Below are positions 4,906 through 24,322 of a DNA stretch of 26,762 nt, piece by piece. The translations under genes and the position numbers were made by a program. The first letter of the stretch is position 1. Every line of letters begins with the position of its first letter. The stretch spans positions 1-26,762 of the forward strand of contig CAKUNB010000006.1 in the NCBI GenBank assembly GCA_934668285.1, in the 5' to 3' direction. Origin of the DNA: an uncultured Oscillospiraceae bacterium. Its GTDB lineage: Bacteria > Bacillota > Clostridia > Oscillospirales > Oscillospiraceae. Below the pieces are notes generated by a model that had not been told where the DNA came from, ran no database searches, and saw only the letters and a list, made by a program, of their open reading frames with translations.

Positions 4906-6132
4906 ATGAAAGTTTATGACGAGCTGGTCGCCCGCGGCCTGATTGCGCAGGTGACGAACGAGGAAGAGATCCGCGAAATGATCGACAATGGCAAGGCGAC
5001 GTTCTATATCGGCTTCGACCCGACGGCCGATTCGCTGCACGTCGGCCATTTCATGGCCCTGTGCCTGATGAAGCGCCTGCAAATGGCGGGCAACAAGCCC
5101 ATCGCCCTCATCGGCGGCGGCACGGCCATGATCGGCGACCCGTCCGGCCGCACCGACATGCGCTCGATGATGACGCGCGAAACGATCGACCACAACTGCG
5201 CGTGCTTCAAAAAGCAGATGGAGCGCTTCATCGAATTCGGCGAGGGCAAGGCACGGATGGTCAATAACGCCGACTGGCTGCTCAAGCTGAATTACGTGGA
5301 CTTTATCCGCGACATCGGCGGCTGCTTCTCGGTCAACAACATGCTGCGCGCCGAGTGCTTCAAGCAGCGCATGGAAAAGGGTCTGAGCTTCCTCGAATTC
5401 AACTACATGCCCATGCAGTCCTATGACTTCTACTACCTGTTCCAGCACTACGGCTGCAATATGCAGTTCGGCGGCAACGACCAGTGGAGCAACATGCTCG
5501 GCGGCACCGAGCTGATCCGCCGCAAGCTCGGCAAGGATGCGCACGCCATGACCATCACGCTCCTGCTCAACTCCGAGGGCAAAAAGATGGGCAAAACCGC
5601 CAAGGGCGCGGTCTGGCTCGACCCGAACAAGACCTCGCCGTTCGACTTCTACCAGTACTGGCGCAACATCGACGATGCCGATGTCATGAAGTGCATCCGG
5701 ATGCTGACCTTCCTTCCGCTGGAAGAAATTGACGCGATGGACAAATGGGAGGGCAGCGAGCTGAACAAGGCCAAGGGCATCCTCGCCTACGAGTTGACCA
5801 AGCTCGTCCATGGGCAGGAGGAGGCCGAGAGGGCCAAGGCGGCGGCGCTGGCGCTGTTCGGCGGCGGCGCGGACGACGCCAACATGCCCACCACCGAGCT
5901 GACCGCCGCGCAGCTCACGGACGGAAAAATCGCGATTCTTGACCTGATGCTGGCCTGCAAGCTGGCCCCGTCCAAGTCCGAGGCCCGCCGCCTCGTCCAG
6001 CAGGGCGGCGTGTTCGCCGACGACGAGAAGGTCGCCTCCATCGACGTGACCTTCACCGCCGAGCAGCTCAAAGCCGGCGTCAAGCTCCGTAAGGGCAAAA
6101 AGGTCTACCACAAGGCAATTCTTGCCGAATAA
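4906..6132 (+). CDS. tyrS: Tyrosyl-tRNA synthetase
   Basis: The product has 408 residues, normal for bacterial TyrRS. It charges tRNA-Tyr with tyrosine in two steps through tyrosyl-AMP. The class I HIGH signature appears as HVGH (residues 45-48) after DPTADSL, and the KMSKS loop appears as KMGKT (227-231), a known variant in Tyr[11 protein letters not shown] in the middle is the tyrosine/tRNA pocket segment of this family. The last 65 residues ([20 protein letters not shown] and on) are the S4 RNA-binding domain. An AGGAGG site (4895-4900) sits 5 bases before the ATG. The gene is alone between its T-box and a strong terminator, so it is probably a single-gene unit controlled by tRNA-Tyr charging. 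Confidence 0.98.
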
Positions 6133-10139: not shown

Positions 10140-10733
10140 ATGAAATCTATTATCACCATCAGCCGTGAGTTCGGCAGCGGCGGACGTACCGTCGGCCGGC
10201 TGGTCGCCGAACGCCTCGGCTACGCCTTTTACGATCATGAGCTGGTCAACGAGGTTGCGCGGCGCTGCGGCTTCTCCCCGCGCTTTATCGAGGAGCACGG
10301 CGAGTACGCCAGCGCAAGAAGCAGCCTGCTGTTTTCCATCGCGACCGCCGCGCAGACGCCGGACACGCTGTCCATGTTCGACCGGCTGTACATCGAGCAG
10401 ATGAAGTTCATCGAGGAGCTGGCAGAGAAGGGGAACTGCGTCATCGTCGGCCGCTGCGCGGACTATATCCTGCGCGAGCGCAAGGACTGCCTGCACATCT
10501 TCATCCACGCGGATATGGAAAGCCGCGCCAAGCGCATCGTCGAGCAGTACGGCCAGAGCGACAAATCGCCGGAAAAGCGCCTTGCCGAAAAGGACCAGAA
10601 GCGCAAGGTCTACTACAAGAACTACACCGGCCGCGCATGGGCGCAGGCCAAGAATTACGACATGTGCCTCAACAGCGGCGTCCTCGGTGTCGAAACCTGC
10701 GCCGAGCTTGTCGTCCAGGCCGCGAAGAAGTAA
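10140..10733 (+). CDS. Cytidylate kinase-like family protein
   Basis: The product has 197 residues. The start at 10140 follows GCAAGGAGG by 8 bases; the frame is open back to 10056, but that part contains the promoter. The N-terminal loop ITISREFGSGGRTVG is the phosphate-binding motif of the cytidylate-kinase-like family, a P-loop variant. NCVIVGRCADYIL and a lid-like Arg/Lys-rich stretch (MESRAKRIVEQYGQSDKSPE, then DQKRKVYYKNYTG) follow in the usual order. Such proteins are common as stand-alone genes in Clostridia and are distinct from Cmk of the essential CMP kinase type; the phosphate acceptor is not established. It has its own promoter and a terminator at 10817-10844, so it is probably a single-gene unit. 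Confidence 0.88.
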   Translation: MKSIITISREFGSGGRTVGRLVAERLGYAFYDHELVNEVARRCGFSPRFIEEHGEYASARSSLLFSIATAAQTPDTLSMFDRLYIEQMKFIEELAEKGNCVIVGRCADYILRERKDCLHIFIHADMESRAKRIVEQYGQSDKSPEKRLAEKDQKRKVYYKNYTGRAWAQAKNYDMCLNSGVLGVETCAELVVQAAKK

Positions 10734-10816
10734 GATGGCCGCAGCCTTCGCCATGGCCGAACGTTTTGTCATTGTGTTCAAAAACGGACTGCAAAATTTG
10801 TAAAAATTAGCAATAG

Positions 10817-10844
10817 AAAAAGCCTTGCGTCAGCAGGGCTTTTT
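10817..10844 (+). terminator. Terminator after the cytidylate-kinase-like gene
   Basis: AAAAAGCCTTGC (10817-10828) pairs along its whole length (one G-T) with GCAGGGCTTTTT (10833-10844) around a GTCA loop. The -35 box of the ssnA promoter is inside this stem. Confidence 0.82.
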
Positions 10845-10853
10845 CGATATAAT
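10825..10853 (+). promoter_or_regulatory. Promoter for ssnA-ygfK
   Basis: TTGCGT (10825-10830), 17-base spacer, perfect TATAAT (10848-10853); transcription would begin near 10860. The -35 box and most of the spacer lie within the upstream terminator hairpin. Confidence 0.78.
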
Positions 10854-10861
10854 AATACCGT

Positions 10862-10970
10862 AATTGAAGATTGGTAGCTGTAACGAAGTGCTTAGCGCAC
10901 GGGCTTGTAACTATCACTCAGGTATTCTTGAGTGGAGATGCGGAACGGGAGTTCTGCGTCCCCATTTTTT
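10862..10970 (+). promoter_or_regulatory. Candidate riboswitch/attenuator leader of ssnA
   Basis: The leader folds into two parts. The 5' part has TGGTAG (10872-10877) pairing with CTATCA (10911-10916), an inner hairpin GTGC/GCAC (10888-10900), and CACTCA (10915-10920) pairing with TGAGTG (10929-10934). Near-identical CTGTAAC and CTTGTAAC face each other across the inner loop. The 3' part is a strong intrinsic terminator: the arm at 10933-10946 pairs with 10951-10964 at 13 of 14 positions (two G-T, one A-C mismatch), loop GGGA, then TTTTTT at 10965-10970. The ribosome site of ssnA follows at once. The first stem cluster shares two bases with the terminator arm, so the two could compete. The elements of the guanine/adenine riboswitch are not present. 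The ligand is unknown; purine or purine-derived compounds are a guess from the downstream genes. Confidence 0.65.
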
Positions 10971-10994
10971 GTTTATTCTAAGGAGGTCAACGTC

Positions 10995-12353
10995 ATGTAC
11001 ATTCTCGCAAACGGCAAGCTCATCACCCGCAGCCAGACGACGCCCTATCTGCCCGACGGCGGCGTGGTCATCGACGGCACCAAGATCAAGGAGGTCGGCA
11101 AGACCGCCGATCTGAAGGCGAAATACCCCGATGCAGAGTTCATTGATGCCAAGGGCGGCGTGATCATGCCTGCGTTCATCAATGCGCACACCCACATCTA
11201 TTCCGCCCTCGCCCGCGGCCTGTCCATCAAGGGCAACAACCCCACGAACTTCTTTGAGGTCCTCGACGGCACGTGGTGGGCCATCGACCGCAAGCTGACG
11301 CTCAAGGGAACAAAGGCCTCCGCCGATGCGCTGTATCTCGACTGCATCAAGCAGGGCGTGACGACGATCTTCGACCATCACGCATCCTTCTGCGAGATTC
11401 CCGGCAGCCTGTTTGAGATCGCCAAGTCCGCCAAGGAATTCGGCATCCGCTCCTGCCTGTGCTACGAGGTCTCCGACCGCGACGGCGAGGAGAAGTCCAT
11501 CCAGGCCGTGCAGGAAAACGCCGACTTCATCACCTACTGCGAGAAGGAAAAGGACCCGATGCTCGCCGCAATGTTCGGCGGCCACGCCCTGTTCACCATC
11601 TCCGACAAGACCTTTGACCGCATGGTCGCCGCCAACAATGGCCGCACCGGTTATCACATCCATGTCTCCGAGGGCATGAACGACGTGTACGACTCCCTGC
11701 AGAACTACGGCCGCCGCCCCGTGCAGCGCCTGCACGACCACGGCATTCTGGGCGAAAAGACCATTCTCGGCCACTGCATCCATGTCAATACCGCCGAAAT
11801 TGAACTCATTAAGAACACCGGCACCATGGTCGTCAACAACCCCGAGTCCAATATGGGCAACGCCGTCGGCACCTGCCCGGTGCTGCCGCTTTACAAGGCG
11901 GGCGTGCTGCTCGGCATGGGCACCGACGCTTACACCAACGACATGATCGAGTCCATCAAGGTCGCGCTTCCGGCGCAGCGCCAGAACGCCTGCCTGCCGA
12001 ACGTCGGCTGGTGCGAGGTCACGGACATGCTCTTTAAGAACAACGCCCTGATCGGTGCGAAGTACTTCCCCGACAAGCTCGGTGTCCTCGAGGCCGGTGC
12101 AGCGGCGGACGTGATCGTCATGGATTACAAGCCGTACACCCCGTTCTCCGACGCGAACATCGACGGCCACATCATCTTCGGCATGACCGGCCGCCAGTGC
12201 CAGACCACCATTGCCAACGGCAAGCTCCTCATGAAGGACCGCGAGCTGGTCGGCATCGACGAGGAAGCCGTCAACGCCCACATCCTCGAGGAGTCCAAGA
12301 AGCTCTGGGGCGATCTGAACCACTGCACCTACGACGCCAACGGCGAGTGCTGA
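10995..12353 (+). CDS. ssnA: Amidohydrolase SsnA
   Basis: The product has 452 residues, close to known SsnA proteins. The start at 10995 follows TAAGGAGG by 8 bases; the longer open frame runs through the leader terminator and is rejected. It belongs to the metal-dependent amidohydrolase family related to guanine deaminase and chlorohydrolases: an N-terminal beta strand region, VIMPAFINAHTHIYS with metal ligands H65 and H67, FDHHASF, GGHALFTISD, HIHVSEG, LGHCIHV and LGMGTDAYTND with the late metal-binding Asp. The protein is probably cytosolic. The ssnA-ygfK pair belongs to the gene set linked to anaerobic purine and uric acid degradation in gut bacteria; the exact substrate of SsnA is not certain. 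ygfK lies downstream beyond an intervening transposase-like gene, and the pair is probably one transcript from the 10825 promoter. Confidence 0.9.
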   Translation: MYILANGKLITRSQTTPYLPDGGVVIDGTKIKEVGKTADLKAKYPDAEFIDAKGGVIMPAFINAHTHIYSALARGLSIKGNNPTNFFEVLDGTWWAIDRKLTLKGTKASADALYLDCIKQGVTTIFDHHASFCEIPGSLFEIAKSAKEFGIRSCLCYEVSDRDGEEKSIQAVQENADFITYCEKEKDPMLAAMFGGHALFTISDKTFDRMVAANNGRTGYHIHVSEGMNDVYDSLQNYGRRPVQRLHDHGILGEKTILGHCIHVNTAEIELIKNTGTMVVNNPESNMGNAVGTCPVLPLYKAGVLLGMGTDAYTNDMIESIKVALPAQRQNACLPNVGWCEVTDMLFKNNALIGAKYFPDKLGVLEAGAAADVIVMDYKPYTPFSDANIDGHIIFGMTGRQCQTTIANGKLLMKDRELVGIDEEAVNAHILEESKKLWGDLNHCTYDANGEC

Positions 12354-12470
12354 AAAGACCGAGCTTCAAAGAAATCACCCCCGCCTGACCGAATACGACT
12401 ATACCCAAAACGGCCATTACTTCGTCACGATCTGCACCAAAAATCGAAGGAACTTGTTGAGCAACGTTGC

Positions 12471-12554
12471 CGTAGGGCGGGGTGCCGTTTGCGCAGCCGT
12501 CAGCGACGAAGGAGCGCTACGGATGCGGCATACCCCTTGCGGGTACACCCCGCC
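12471..12554 (+). repeat. Split REP-type element inside the RAYT gene
   Basis: CGTAGGG (12471-12477) leads into GGCGGGGTG (12476-12484); the complementary arm CACCCCGCC is not adjacent but at 12546-12554, with about 60 bases between that include a further TACCC/GGGTA hairpin. It is the same foot and stem as the compact copy at 16064-16089. Confidence 0.6.
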
Positions 12555-12735
12555 GCTGGTACAGCTTACCCCACTCGGTAAAACGGTGGATAAGTTCATC
12601 CGCAGTATCCCGCAGGCCTATCGTGATGTCGCGGTCGAGGCGTATGTCATTATGCCGAATCATGCGCACCTTTTAATTTCTCTCGAACTCCCGCCGGATG
12701 CATCACCGGAAGGTACAAACCTTTCGGAAGCTGGC

Positions 12736-12763
12736 GGCGGGGTGAGGGCACCCCGCCCTACGG
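12736..12763 (-). repeat. REP-type hairpin inside the RAYT gene
   Basis: GGCGGGGTG (12736-12744) pairs perfectly with CACCCCGCC (12749-12757), loop AGGG, followed by CTACGG. Read on the minus strand it is CCGTAGGG plus the hairpin, so it is inverted relative to the copy at 12471. It is translated in frame as GGGVRAPRPTE. Confidence 0.7.
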
Positions 12764-13001
12764 AGCATCCGAAAATCGATGCACATCCCGTTCCAATACA
12801 GTCGCGGACCTCGCTGCACACGGTCGTGCGGGGATTGAAATCACTGGTCACGCGGGCCTGCGGCTATTCGATTTGGCAAACATCCTACTATGACCACATC
12901 ATCCGCAGCGAGGCGGATGAGCTTCGGATACTGGAATATATCCAAACGAACCCCGCCCGTTGGGCGGAGGATGAATACTACCAAACTTAGGAGGTTCTCT
13001 C

Positions 13002-15944
13002 ATGTCTGAAAGAATGTACCCAATTCCCTTTAAGGACCTGATGCGCTGGATTATCACCGAGCGCAAAAACTCCGGCGAGATTTTCGGCATCCACACCGAA
13101 TACAAGGCCGACCCGGCCAAGACCCTGCCGATCTTCGGCGAAAAAATTGAAACCCCGTTCGGCCCCGCCGCCGGCCCGAACAGTCAGCTTGCGCAGAACA
13201 TCATCGCCTCCTACGTCGCGGGCGCCCGCTTCTTCGAGGTCAAAACCGTCCAGAAGATGGACGGCGAGGAGCTTGCCCGCTGTGTGCCGCGTCCCTGCAT
13301 CCTTGCCGACGACGAGGGCTACAACCAGGAATGGTCCACCGAGCTTGAGGTCGGCCAGGCACTGAACGAATACATCAAGGCGTGGTGCGCCCTGAAGGTC
13401 ATGGCGAAAAAATGGGGCTACGGCGATCCTGACGGCTTCGTGTTCAATATGTCCGTCGGCTACGATCTGGAGGGCATCAAGGGCGAGAAGATCGACAACT
13501 ACATCGAGTCCATGAAGGACGCGACCCGCGCGCCGATCTTTGCCGAGTGCAAGACCGTTCTGACCGAGCTGTTCCCCGAGGAGGCGGAGTTTATCGCCGC
13601 CATCTCCCCGCGCGTTTCCCGCTCCGTCACCCTCTCAACGCTGCACGGCTGCCCGCCCGATGAGATCGAGCGCATCGCCTCCTACCTCATCACCGAGAAG
13701 AAGGTCAACACCTTCGTCAAGTGCAACCCCACCATCCTCGGCTACAAGGATGCGCGCAATATCCTCGATTCGATGGGCTATGACTACATCGTCTTCGACG
13801 ACCATCACTTCAACGAGGACCTGCAGTGGAAGGACGCCGTTCCCATGTTCGAGCGCCTGCAGGCGCTGGCCGACAAGAGCGGTCTGGAATTCGGCCTGAA
13901 GCTGTCGAACACCTTCCCCGTCGATACCACCCGCGGCGAGCTGCCGAACAACGAGATGTACATGTCCGGTCGTTCCCTGTTCCCGCTGACGATTGAGATG
14001 TGCCGCCGCATTTCCACACAGTTCGGCGGCAGGATGAAGATCTCCTTCGCCGGCGGCGCGGAATTCTTCAACTGCGACAAGCTGCTGGCAGCGGGCATCT
14101 GGCCCATCACCGTCGCCACCACCATCCTCAAGCCGGGCGGCTACAACCGCCTCGTCCAGATGGCAAAGAAGGTCGAGGGCATGGAGTTCAAGCCCTTCAC
14201 CTCCACCGACACCGAAGCCATTGCCAAAATGTCCCTCGAATGCCGCACGGACTACCACCATGTCAAGCCCGTCAAGCCGCTGCCCTCCCGCAAGAACGAG
14301 GAGCGCGTGCCTTGGATGGATTGCTACATTGCTCCCTGCAAGGGCGGCTGCCCCATCGAGCAGGACATCCCCGAGTACATCGAGCTGTGCAAGAAGGGCC
14401 TGTATAACGAGGCGCTCGCGCTCATCACCGAGAAGAACGCCCTGCCGTTCATCACCGGCACCATCTGCGCCCACCGCTGCATGGGTAAGTGCTCGCGTAA
14501 TTTCTACGACGAGGCCGTCCAGATCCGCGCAACGAAGCTCCTCGCCGCCGAAAACGGCTACGACGCGCTGCTCGCGTCCGTGAAGAAGCCCGCCAAGGTC
14601 GAGGGCAAAAAGGCTGCCATCATCGGCGGCGGCCCGACCGGCATTGCGGCGGCTTACTTCCTCGGCCGCGCCGGTGTGGAGTGCACGATCTTTGAGCGCA
14701 CGAACGCCCTCGGCGGCATCGTTCGCCACGTCATCCCCGAATTCCGCATCAGCCACGAGGCCATTGACAAGGACATCGCCCTCATGCAGGCCTACGGCGC
14801 GGAAATCCGCCTGAACACCGAGGCCCCCTCCGTCGAGGAGCTGAAAAAGCAGGGCTACACTCACATCCTCTATGCCGTCGGCGCATGGAAGCCCGGCAAG
14901 CTCGATATCCCCGGCAATGTCCGCGGCGTTATCGGCTGGCTGGAGGAAATGAAGGCCGGTAAGGGCGGCAAGCTCGGCCACGTCGCCGTCGTCGGCGGCG
15001 GCAACACCGCCATGGACGCAGCCAGAGTCGCAAAGCGCGCAGGCGCAGCCTCCTCCACGCTGGTCTATCGCCGCACGAAGAAGTATATGCCCGCCGATGC
15101 TGAGGAGCTGGAGCTGGCAATTGCCGACGGTGTGGACTTCCTCGAGCTGGTCGCGCCCGTCGAACAGAAGGACGGCAAGCTGATCTGCAACAAGATGGAG
15201 CTTGGCGCACCCGACGCTTCCGGCAGAAGAAGCCCCGTTTCCACCGGTGAGACGGTCGAAATCCCCTGTGACCTCGTCATTTCCGCCGTCGGCGAGCAGG
15301 TCGATGCCGACCTGATGGCGGCCAACGGCATTGAAATGGGCCGCAAGGGTCCCGCGTTCCAGACGAACGTCGAGGGCGTTTACGCCGCAGGCGACTGCCA
15401 CCGCGGCCCCGCCACCGTCGTTGAAGGCATCGCCGACGCTGCGAAGTTTGCGGAGATCGTGATCGGCAAGAAGCACACCTACGAAATTCCCGATGCCGCC
15501 TACCCGACCATGGCCGAGGCCATTGCGAAGAAGGGCATCCTTGCTATGGCGAAGGACGTCAAGTGCGAGGGCGAGCGCTGCCTCGACTGCAACACCGTCT
15601 GCCAGAACTGCGCCGATGTCTGCCCGAACCGCGCCAACGTCGTCATCCGCCTGCCCGACGGCCGGACGGAAATTCTGCATGTCGACCGGATGTGCAACGA
15701 GTGCGGCAACTGCACCGCCTTCTGCCCGTACAACGCCCAGCCGTGCAAGGATAAGTTCACCCTGTTCCAGACCGAAAAGGACATGGACGATTCCAAGAAC
15801 TTCGGCTTCTGCTTCCTCGAGGGCGGCAAGATCCGCGTCCGCCTGTTCACCGAGCAGGTCTGCGGCGCCGACTGCGCCGGTCTGCCGGAGGACATCGCCC
15901 TGTTCATCCGCACCGTCCGCGACGCGTACAGCTACCTGTACTAA
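13002..15944 (+). CDS. ygfK: YgfK-type flavin/iron-sulfur oxidoreductase (putative selenate reductase subunit)
   Basis: The product has 980 residues and an AGGAGG site 8 bases before ATG. Residues 1-420 resemble a dihydroorotate-dehydrogenase-like barrel (TPFGPAAGPNSQLAQN, FEVKTVQKMDG, LSTLHGCPPDEIE). Residues 435-520 are the N-terminal iron-sulfur module of the glutamate-synthase small subunit/dihydropyrimidine dehydrogenase type, with C441, C446, C450 and further Cys. FAD binding is at AAIIGGGPTGIAAAYFLG (near 537-554) and NAD(P) binding at VAVVGGGNTAMDAARVAKRAG (near 661). The C-terminus has two cluster motifs: C863-C867-C870-C874 and C898-C901-C904-C908. This is the full YgfK layout. There is no in-frame TGA, so no selenocysteine. 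Despite the old selenate reductase name, ygfK is linked with ssnA to anaerobic uric acid and purine breakdown; the enzyme chemistry is inferred. Confidence 0.93.
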   Translation: MSERMYPIPFKDLMRWIITERKNSGEIFGIHTEYKADPAKTLPIFGEKIETPFGPAAGPNSQLAQNIIASYVAGARFFEVKTVQKMDGEELARCVPRPCILADDEGYNQEWSTELEVGQALNEYIKAWCALKVMAKKWGYGDPDGFVFNMSVGYDLEGIKGEKIDNYIESMKDATRAPIFAECKTVLTELFPEEAEFIAAISPRVSRSVTLSTLHGCPPDEIERIASYLITEKKVNTFVKCNPTILGYKDARNILDSMGYDYIVFDDHHFNEDLQWKDAVPMFERLQALADKSGLEFGLKLSNTFPVDTTRGELPNNEMYMSGRSLFPLTIEMCRRISTQFGGRMKISFAGGAEFFNCDKLLAAGIWPITVATTILKPGGYNRLVQMAKKVEGMEFKPFTSTDTEAIAKMSLECRTDYHHVKPVKPLPSRKNEERVPWMDCYIAPCKGGCPIEQDIPEYIELCKKGLYNEALALITEKNALPFITGTICAHRCMGKCSRNFYDEAVQIRATKLLAAENGYDALLASVKKPAKVEGKKAAIIGGGPTGIAAAYFLGRAGVECTIFERTNALGGIVRHVIPEFRISHEAIDKDIALMQAYGAEIRLNTEAPSVEELKKQGYTHILYAVGAWKPGKLDIPGNVRGVIGWLEEMKAGKGGKLGHVAVVGGGNTAMDAARVAKRAGAASSTLVYRRTKKYMPADAEELELAIADGVDFLELVAPVEQKDGKLICNKMELGAPDASGRRSPVSTGETVEIPCDLVISAVGEQVDADLMAANGIEMGRKGPAFQTNVEGVYAAGDCHRGPATVVEGIADAAKFAEIVIGKKHTYEIPDAAYPTMAEAIAKKGILAMAKDVKCEGERCLDCNTVCQNCADVCPNRANVVIRLPDGRTEILHVDRMCNECGNCTAFCPYNAQPCKDKFTLFQTEKDMDDSKNFGFCFLEGGKIRVRLFTEQVCGADCAGLPEDIALFIRTVRDAYSYLY

Positions 15945-24149: not shown

Positions 24150-24322
24150 ATGCTGCAGGGAGTAGGAACAGTGCGTTAAGTACCGATCGGATGGGAGGTT
24201 GCCGTCGGGCGAAGGCGTTTTCGGATGCCGCGATACTGTTACCGCAACCGCCTGGCAAGACGCCCGATGATTCTTGGCGTAGCATCGCGCATATTTTCAA
24301 CCTCCTCCAAATCTAAGGAGGA
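24150..24322 (+). promoter_or_regulatory. Tetrahydrofolate-type riboswitch in front of folT
   Basis: The aptamer (about 24150-24250) has the order of conserved parts known from tetrahydrofolate riboswitches: GGAGTAG (24159-24165), GCGTTAAGT (24173-24181), GATGGGAGGTTG, GGCGAAGG and a closing ACCGCA. AACAGT (24167-24172) pairs with ACTGTT (24235-24240) and TGCAGG with CCGCA closes the base. The expression platform is translational: CCTCCT (24301-24306) can pair with the ribosome site AGGAGG (24316-24321). GGAGGTT inside the aptamer (24194-24200) is perfectly complementary to AACCTCC (24299-24305), so folded and unfolded aptamer would give opposite states. The downstream genes, folT and folC, fit the ligand. 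Confidence 0.85.

Follow-up and report, generated by a model that had tools for sequence, protein, structure and literature searches.

The window analyzed here, a stretch of 26,762 nucleotides from an uncultured Oscillospiraceae bacterium, carries ssnA on the forward strand at 10995..12353 (NF005540, 626.5 bits, cut-off 444; TIGR03314, 549.9 bits, cut-off 455.5). The gene starts with an ATG at 10995, behind the sequence of a ribosome site, AAGGAGG (10980..10986, +), and is followed by the next pathway gene, ygfK (13002..15944, +; TIGR03315, 1260.4 bits, cut-off 835.3). An ORF between the two (12454-12990) bears a weak resemblance to REP-associated tyrosine transposases (50.9 bits, below the cut-off of 80), and a small ORF is also present between ssnA and ygfK in several relatives (L111, L127, and L142). 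Upstream of the ssnA leader, the intrinsic terminator of the preceding gene (10817..10844, +; stem strands aaaaagccttgc and gcagggcttttt, loop gtca) overlaps the weak -35 element of the ssnA promoter.

A covariance-model search of the whole window identified the leader as a copy of ssnA RNA (Rfam RF03031, Cis-reg). The match spans 10868..10915 (+), corresponds to positions 1-48 of the 48 in the model, and scores 56.1 bits against a curated gathering score of 37.3 (E 3.4e-13); ssnA begins downstream of it, at 10995. ssnA RNA was reportedly first described by Weinberg et al. 2017, from which the Rfam entry presumably derives. An earlier note on this DNA had proposed an undescribed riboswitch, a reading that it staked on the leader matching no known Rfam family. 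The full-length match, ∼19 bits above the gathering score, rules out a new riboswitch class, and we regard the chance that the class is undescribed as negligible. A permissive search of 10600-11200 returned, besides RF03031, two weak sRNA matches below their cut-offs and nothing else. At E <= 1 the purine, THF, ZTP, guanidine, and Mn riboswitch families gave no match in this interval, in line with the earlier note's remark that the fold shows none of their conserved parts, and neither did the model of the NMT1 xanthine riboswitch. The leader thus belongs to a known family of orphan RNAs, of which it is a genuine and in other respects unremarkable member. Our literature search, judged by titles, abstract openings, and word counts and with subscription journals mostly outside its reach, found no named ligand of ssnA RNA among the matches listed. 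The present analysis adds the proposed ON logic, the anatomy of the expression platform, further gene contexts, and a testable pair of ligands.

In sequence, structure, and position before ssnA the leader is the same as RF03031, and its aptamer shows no difference from the family. Guanine-class (purine) riboswitches, which are built around a three-way junction, have no Rfam match at the ssnA leader. They and their xanthine variants have purine ligands in common with the candidate considered below (PMC9295807). The NMT1 xanthine riboswitch is likewise a small RNA with a conserved junction that is associated with purine-breakdown genes and binds oxidised purines, but it differs from ssnA RNA in its conserved bases and is reported to be an OFF switch, probably a translational one (PMC7373994 and PMC8266621). 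A by-eye comparison with the published structure description, as far as that was accessible, revealed no core common to NMT1 and ssnA RNA, and kinship through conserved bases was rejected.

The aptamer core lies at 10875..10906 (+) and is formed by P1 (10875-10879/10902-10906), the conserved GUAACGAA (10880-10887) between the P1 and P2 5' strands, P2 (10888-10891/10897-10900), and a bulged G10901 that follows P2. U10875 and U10906 are unpaired, so that the P1 helix of the window lacks one outer pair and has four. UGGUAG (10872..10877, +) can pair with CUAUCA (10911..10916, +) in competition with P1. The CUAUCA element is common to this pairing and to an antiterminator hairpin, CACUCAGG-UAUU-CUUGAGUG (10915..10934, +), whose 3' arm overlaps the foot of an intrinsic terminator (10934..10970, +; 5' arm 10934-10946, 3' arm 10951-10963, six T at 10965-10970). 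The terminator core consists of ten unbroken pairs (10937-10946/10951-10960), extended across one A-C mismatch by 10934-10935/10962-10963 and U10933-A10964, which fits the 14 positions and six T counted previously. The RF03031 match and the hairpin behind it bear out the structured cis-regulatory leader that the earlier note had placed before ssnA-ygfK.

The window by itself makes structure and terminator only moderately convincing. The fold of 10862-10975 has a z-score of -2.4, with 3 of 200 shuffles equally good, and a plain scan finds two terminator-like sites in 1.5 kb where 1.5 are expected. We accept the leader as real because the Rfam match and the relatives settle what the window alone leaves moderate.

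To place the RNA among relatives, we used a collection of one genome per species (84,980 species), in which the core pattern matched 52 stretches; their records are named as Oscillospiraceae and its genera, or just as Clostridia or Bacillota. With the covariance model, the family yielded the RNA in 110 of 400 genomes, 103 of them over the cut-off, and the order in 18 of 394 (16 over the cut-off); in the class, 6 of 391 genomes had a match at E <= 0.001, and the starting genome was the sole one over the cut-off. The core pattern had no exact match in viral contigs, and spread of ssnA RNA by phages was rejected on this result.

From 158 distinct loose matches, 26 fell to a filter that tested spacing and the bases on either side of the hairpin, and another 4 were removed as duplicates, leaving 128 distinct leaders, window included; these are related by descent, and counts among them are not independent. 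Because the core was used in selecting the leaders, part of its conservation is built in; no selection was made on flanks, terminators, or genes. Two of the 26 filtered-out matches are probably genuine divergent copies, one at L176, which precedes ssnA, and one on the minus strand of L151. Both, together with a third divergent copy at L195, stand outside all counts of 128, and L195 alone is among the cores aligned below. A looser scan of all collected loci, the energy filter of which would miss copies like L195, returned none beyond the 128 and these three. The L195 copy has no RF03031 match, carries the loop GAAACUAA, and belongs to a genome with two ssnA-like genes. When the leaders of 26 ssnA-like genes from 25 genomes that pass the SsnA cut-off and lack an RNA match were read by eye, L195 was the only one with a variant. 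In the L151 copy (∼1776-1742, minus strand), P2 is rewritten and the P1 3' strand is covered by a terminator with a T-run; the single RF03031 match in that genome (G640) is the copy before ssnA, not the one before a hydantoinase gene.

Covariation was analyzed in an alignment of 98 distinct cores; the 128 leaders contributed 97, and L195 was entered by hand. P1 and P2 together pair in 97.2% of cells (94.9% for P1 and 100% for P2), compared with 96.0% in shuffled alignments. Double-sided changes occur in 13 cells versus 3.3 in shuffles, and the covariation score is 0.141 versus 0.113, with 0 of 500 shuffles as high. The double-sided changes fall at four of the nine pairs, three in P1 and one in P2; the remaining pairs hardly vary. 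The pairing is lost when the partners are shifted by 1-3 columns. In L195 four of the five P1 pairs differ and all five stay Watson-Crick, and the L151 minus-strand copy, which is outside the 98 cores, retains a weak hairpin (-2.2 kcal/mol) with a different P2 sequence. P1 and P2 of RF03031 are thus supported by covariation in the relatives. Four bases of the internal loop GNAANNNA (G, A, A, and A) never vary among the 98 cores, nor do three G that precede the end of P1. The earlier note had named two features to look for in homologous ssnA leaders, pairs that covary and loop bases that are conserved; both are present. An orphan core of 38 nt with two short helices could also serve as a protein site, and a protein or another trans-acting factor might bind the RNA in place of a metabolite. 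We consider this improbable, as the conserved bases reside largely in an asymmetric internal loop and its G-rich partner, an arrangement found in aptamers.

The relatives also bear on the promoter. In the window a perfect -10 box, TATAAT (10848..10853, +), is separated by a 17-nt spacer from the weak -35 sequence TTGCGT (10825-10830, +; 3/6), and would direct transcription from a start near 10860. A consensus scan reports no promoter, because the -35 element is weak and lies inside the terminator stem of the upstream gene. A perfect TATAAT is found in 44 of 127 leaders (26 nt searched), compared with 27 of 635 shuffles. From TATAAT to P1 the family most often has 21 nt, as does the window. The promoter that had been read here previously is therefore backed by the family in its -10 box, but not by its -35 element or by the scan.

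Hairpins of -14 kcal/mol or below in front of a T-run are present in 102 of the 128 leaders, as opposed to 5 of 384 shuffles. A first scan assigned terminators to 117 of the 128 and a wider scan to 123. In the wider scan, 104 leaders have a terminator separate from P1, 19 have one that uses 1-5 P1 bases, and 5 have none; the terminator was picked automatically as the most stable hairpin before a T-run and is possibly wrong for individual leaders, L121, L083, and L041 among them. Sorted by reading, the terminators fall into five architectures. In type (a), to which the window belongs, a TGRTAG element precedes P1 and a CTATC-type element follows it; 69 of 128 leaders carry the two together, 55 lack both, and 4 carry one alone. 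The CTATC-type element also starts a hairpin, the 3' arm of which usually runs into the foot of the terminator. In type (b), seen for example in L069, the strand right after P1 is complementary to the terminator 5' arm. In type (c) the P1 3' strand is itself the terminator 5' arm, as in L005 and L050, which precede a hydantoinase gene. P2 and its loop supply this arm in type (d) (L134, L161, and L164, among 23 loci chosen as unusual); these are three of the five leaders scored as terminator-less in the wider scan. In type (e) a long terminator stem takes up the P1 5' strand along with the conserved GUAAC (L061, L062, L156, and the first copy of L075). Folded aptamer and terminator cannot coexist in types (c)-(e). 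The L075 locus has tandem ssnA RNAs before one ssnA (1336-1373 and 1505-1542), each followed by a terminator whose stem includes the 5' half of the aptamer.

In the 104 leaders whose terminators share no base with P1, we forced the aptamer in a transcript that stops at the terminator 5' arm, and calculated what it costs to open this arm. The forced aptamer raises the cost by a median of 3.0 kcal/mol, with 85 leaders above +0.5, 13 below -0.5, and 6 near zero (kcal/mol). In 20 sets of shuffled linkers the medians range from 0.09 to 0.53, with 36-53 leaders above +0.5 and 15-33 below -0.5. The increase in the window is 3.1 kcal/mol. The UGGUAG/CUAUCA helix is part of the minimum-energy fold of 10862-10975. 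When the transcript is cut at the terminator 5' arm, the free fold of the window contains the antiterminator and a P1-like helix and no UGGUAG helix, and we therefore describe the competition between aptamer and terminator as a bias and not as all-or-none. The expression platform is coupled to the aptamer in silico, with 13 of the 104 leaders contrary.

Aptamer and terminator thus mostly exclude each other, which argues for a transcriptional ON switch and agrees with the earlier suggestion of a conditional terminator, which the terminator, on these calculations, probably is. On balance, the data favor that the genes are turned on when the aptamer is held. Under the opposite logic a ligand, such as an end product or a cofactor, would promote termination. 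The opposite coupling seen in 13 of 104 leaders speaks for such an OFF switch. Against it stand the 85 of 104 leaders with positive coupling, the 19 further leaders whose terminators share bases with P1, and the kind of genes controlled, since catabolic genes are usually induced; we find it very unlikely. The competition between aptamer and terminator in most of the family is, like family membership, the covarying P1 and P2, and the gene contexts, a computed result.

An SsnA match lies downstream of 121 of the 128 leaders, within 250 nt in 119. The remaining seven precede D-hydantoinase (2) or NfnA-like genes (3) or are found where the sequence ends first (2). Of 75 leaders with at least 3.5 kb behind them, 73 are followed by ygfK; the exceptions, L005 and L050, precede D-hydantoinase (551.8 and 545.7 bits, cut-off 393), in L050 with a MocA/YgfJ-like protein below its own cut-off behind it. 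The divergent minus-strand copy in L151 also lies directly before a D-hydantoinase gene (529.4 bits), divergent to the ssnA copy ∼4 kb away. Near-identical proteins are encoded behind the leaders in L061, L062, and L156; the one in L156 matches NF004862 (396 bits, cut-off 220), which we take to be NfnA-like, and an incomplete GltA-like protein follows it. This NfnA/NfnB-like pair suggests that in these genomes the supply of electrons to the pathway is controlled in the same way. In 10 chosen loci, the gene after ygfK encodes YgeY (2), a selenium-dependent xanthine dehydrogenase (3, all incomplete genes below the cut-off), D-hydantoinase (1), or no family at threshold (4).

Of 80 RNA-bearing genomes, 76 have a selenium-dependent xanthine dehydrogenase that passes its cut-off (78 at E <= 1e-100) and 74 a YgeY that does so (75 at E <= 1e-60), compared with none over either cut-off in 20 relatives without RNA or SsnA, four of which have weaker dehydrogenase matches. 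Of the 128 genomes that pass the SsnA cut-off, 103 have the RNA and 25 do not, by a comparison made by eye. Seven genomes have an RNA match without an SsnA over the cut-off: three with no more than a partial SsnA match, two with a weak RNA (23-24 bits), and two showing no SsnA match. Inspection of 78 genomes by eye placed the dehydrogenase no more than 10 kb downstream of the RNA and on its strand in 12 genomes, close by but on the opposite strand in another 3, and elsewhere in 63, although contigs are fragmented and nearness can be missed.

These are enzymes of the reductive urate pathway, which begins with the reduction of uric acid to yanthine by XdhD. YgfK and SsnA then take yanthine on to ureidomethyl-hydantoin, which HyuA opens, and YgeW or UacY, YgeY, and YgeX complete the pathway (PMC12507026). 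ygfK and ssnA are among the urate-induced genes common to distant gut bacteria (PMC12990295). The controlled enzymes make a purine breakdown product a plausible candidate ligand, as had been proposed before, and from this gene content our best guess is yanthine (2,8-dioxopurine) first and uric acid second. We place yanthine before urate because the dehydrogenase is mostly away from the RNA, and the yanthine-consuming YgfK and SsnA are encoded behind it.

We thus interpret the leader, with about even confidence, as a copy of ssnA RNA that acts as an ON riboswitch, regulating the genes of the reductive urate pathway at the level of transcription and most likely responding to yanthine. That the signal is a small molecule, which molecule it is, and how the events are timed during transcription are what we infer. 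In the absence of ligand, P1 would not be held and UGGUAG (10872-10877) would pair with CUAUCA (10911-10916); the small hairpin at 10915-10934 would be weakened, and the terminator (10934-10963) would form before ssnA. Upon ligand binding, P1 and the conserved internal loop would lock and CUAUCA would be freed. The hairpin at 10915-10934 could then form fully and tie up the foot of the terminator's 5' arm; the polymerase would read through into ssnA-ygfK.

The same ON switch could instead respond to uric acid, or to another oxidised purine such as xanthine, and not to yanthine, which we judge rather unlikely. Uric acid is the substrate of the pathway, and urate induces ygfK and ssnA in other gut bacteria (PMC12990295), but this published induction could work via yanthine. 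The 12 genomes with the dehydrogenase downstream on the same strand within 10 kb suit urate as well as yanthine; in 63 of 78, on fragmented contigs, this urate-consuming enzyme is not near the RNA. NMT1 already provides a natural class that binds xanthine and uric acid, yet it has no match at this leader.

Returning to yanthine, we tentatively entertain a wider reading, in which ssnA RNA would be the first natural yanthine aptamer and an ON switch dedicated to the reductive urate pathway of Oscillospiraceae, with terminators rebuilt several times on one aptamer, each time so as to be incompatible with it. The routes would be the P1 3' strand, P2 with its loop, the P1 5' strand with GUAAC, and a separate antiterminator. 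The RNA class is catalogued already and the locus is otherwise ordinary. With yanthine and urate as named candidates and ON logic expected, an orphan riboswitch candidate becomes directly testable, and ssnA RNA could provide a genetic sensor of microbial urate breakdown. The description of the pathway dates from 2025, and the same work reports that yanthine, the first intermediate, is raised in the serum of gout patients (PMC12507026).

Elsewhere in the window, a T-box leader (RF00230, 4626-4867, 115.8 bits) precedes a tyrosyl-tRNA-synthetase-like gene (4906-6132). T-box leaders, which are a different Rfam family from ssnA RNA, sense uncharged tRNA and have a conditional terminator that is read through when the signal is present, as we propose for ssnA RNA. 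A THF riboswitch (RF01831, 24156-24255, 65.3 bits) lies before genes for an ECF transporter S component and a Mur-ligase-type protein. The ORF start listed at 24225 overlaps this riboswitch, and the true start is therefore probably later.
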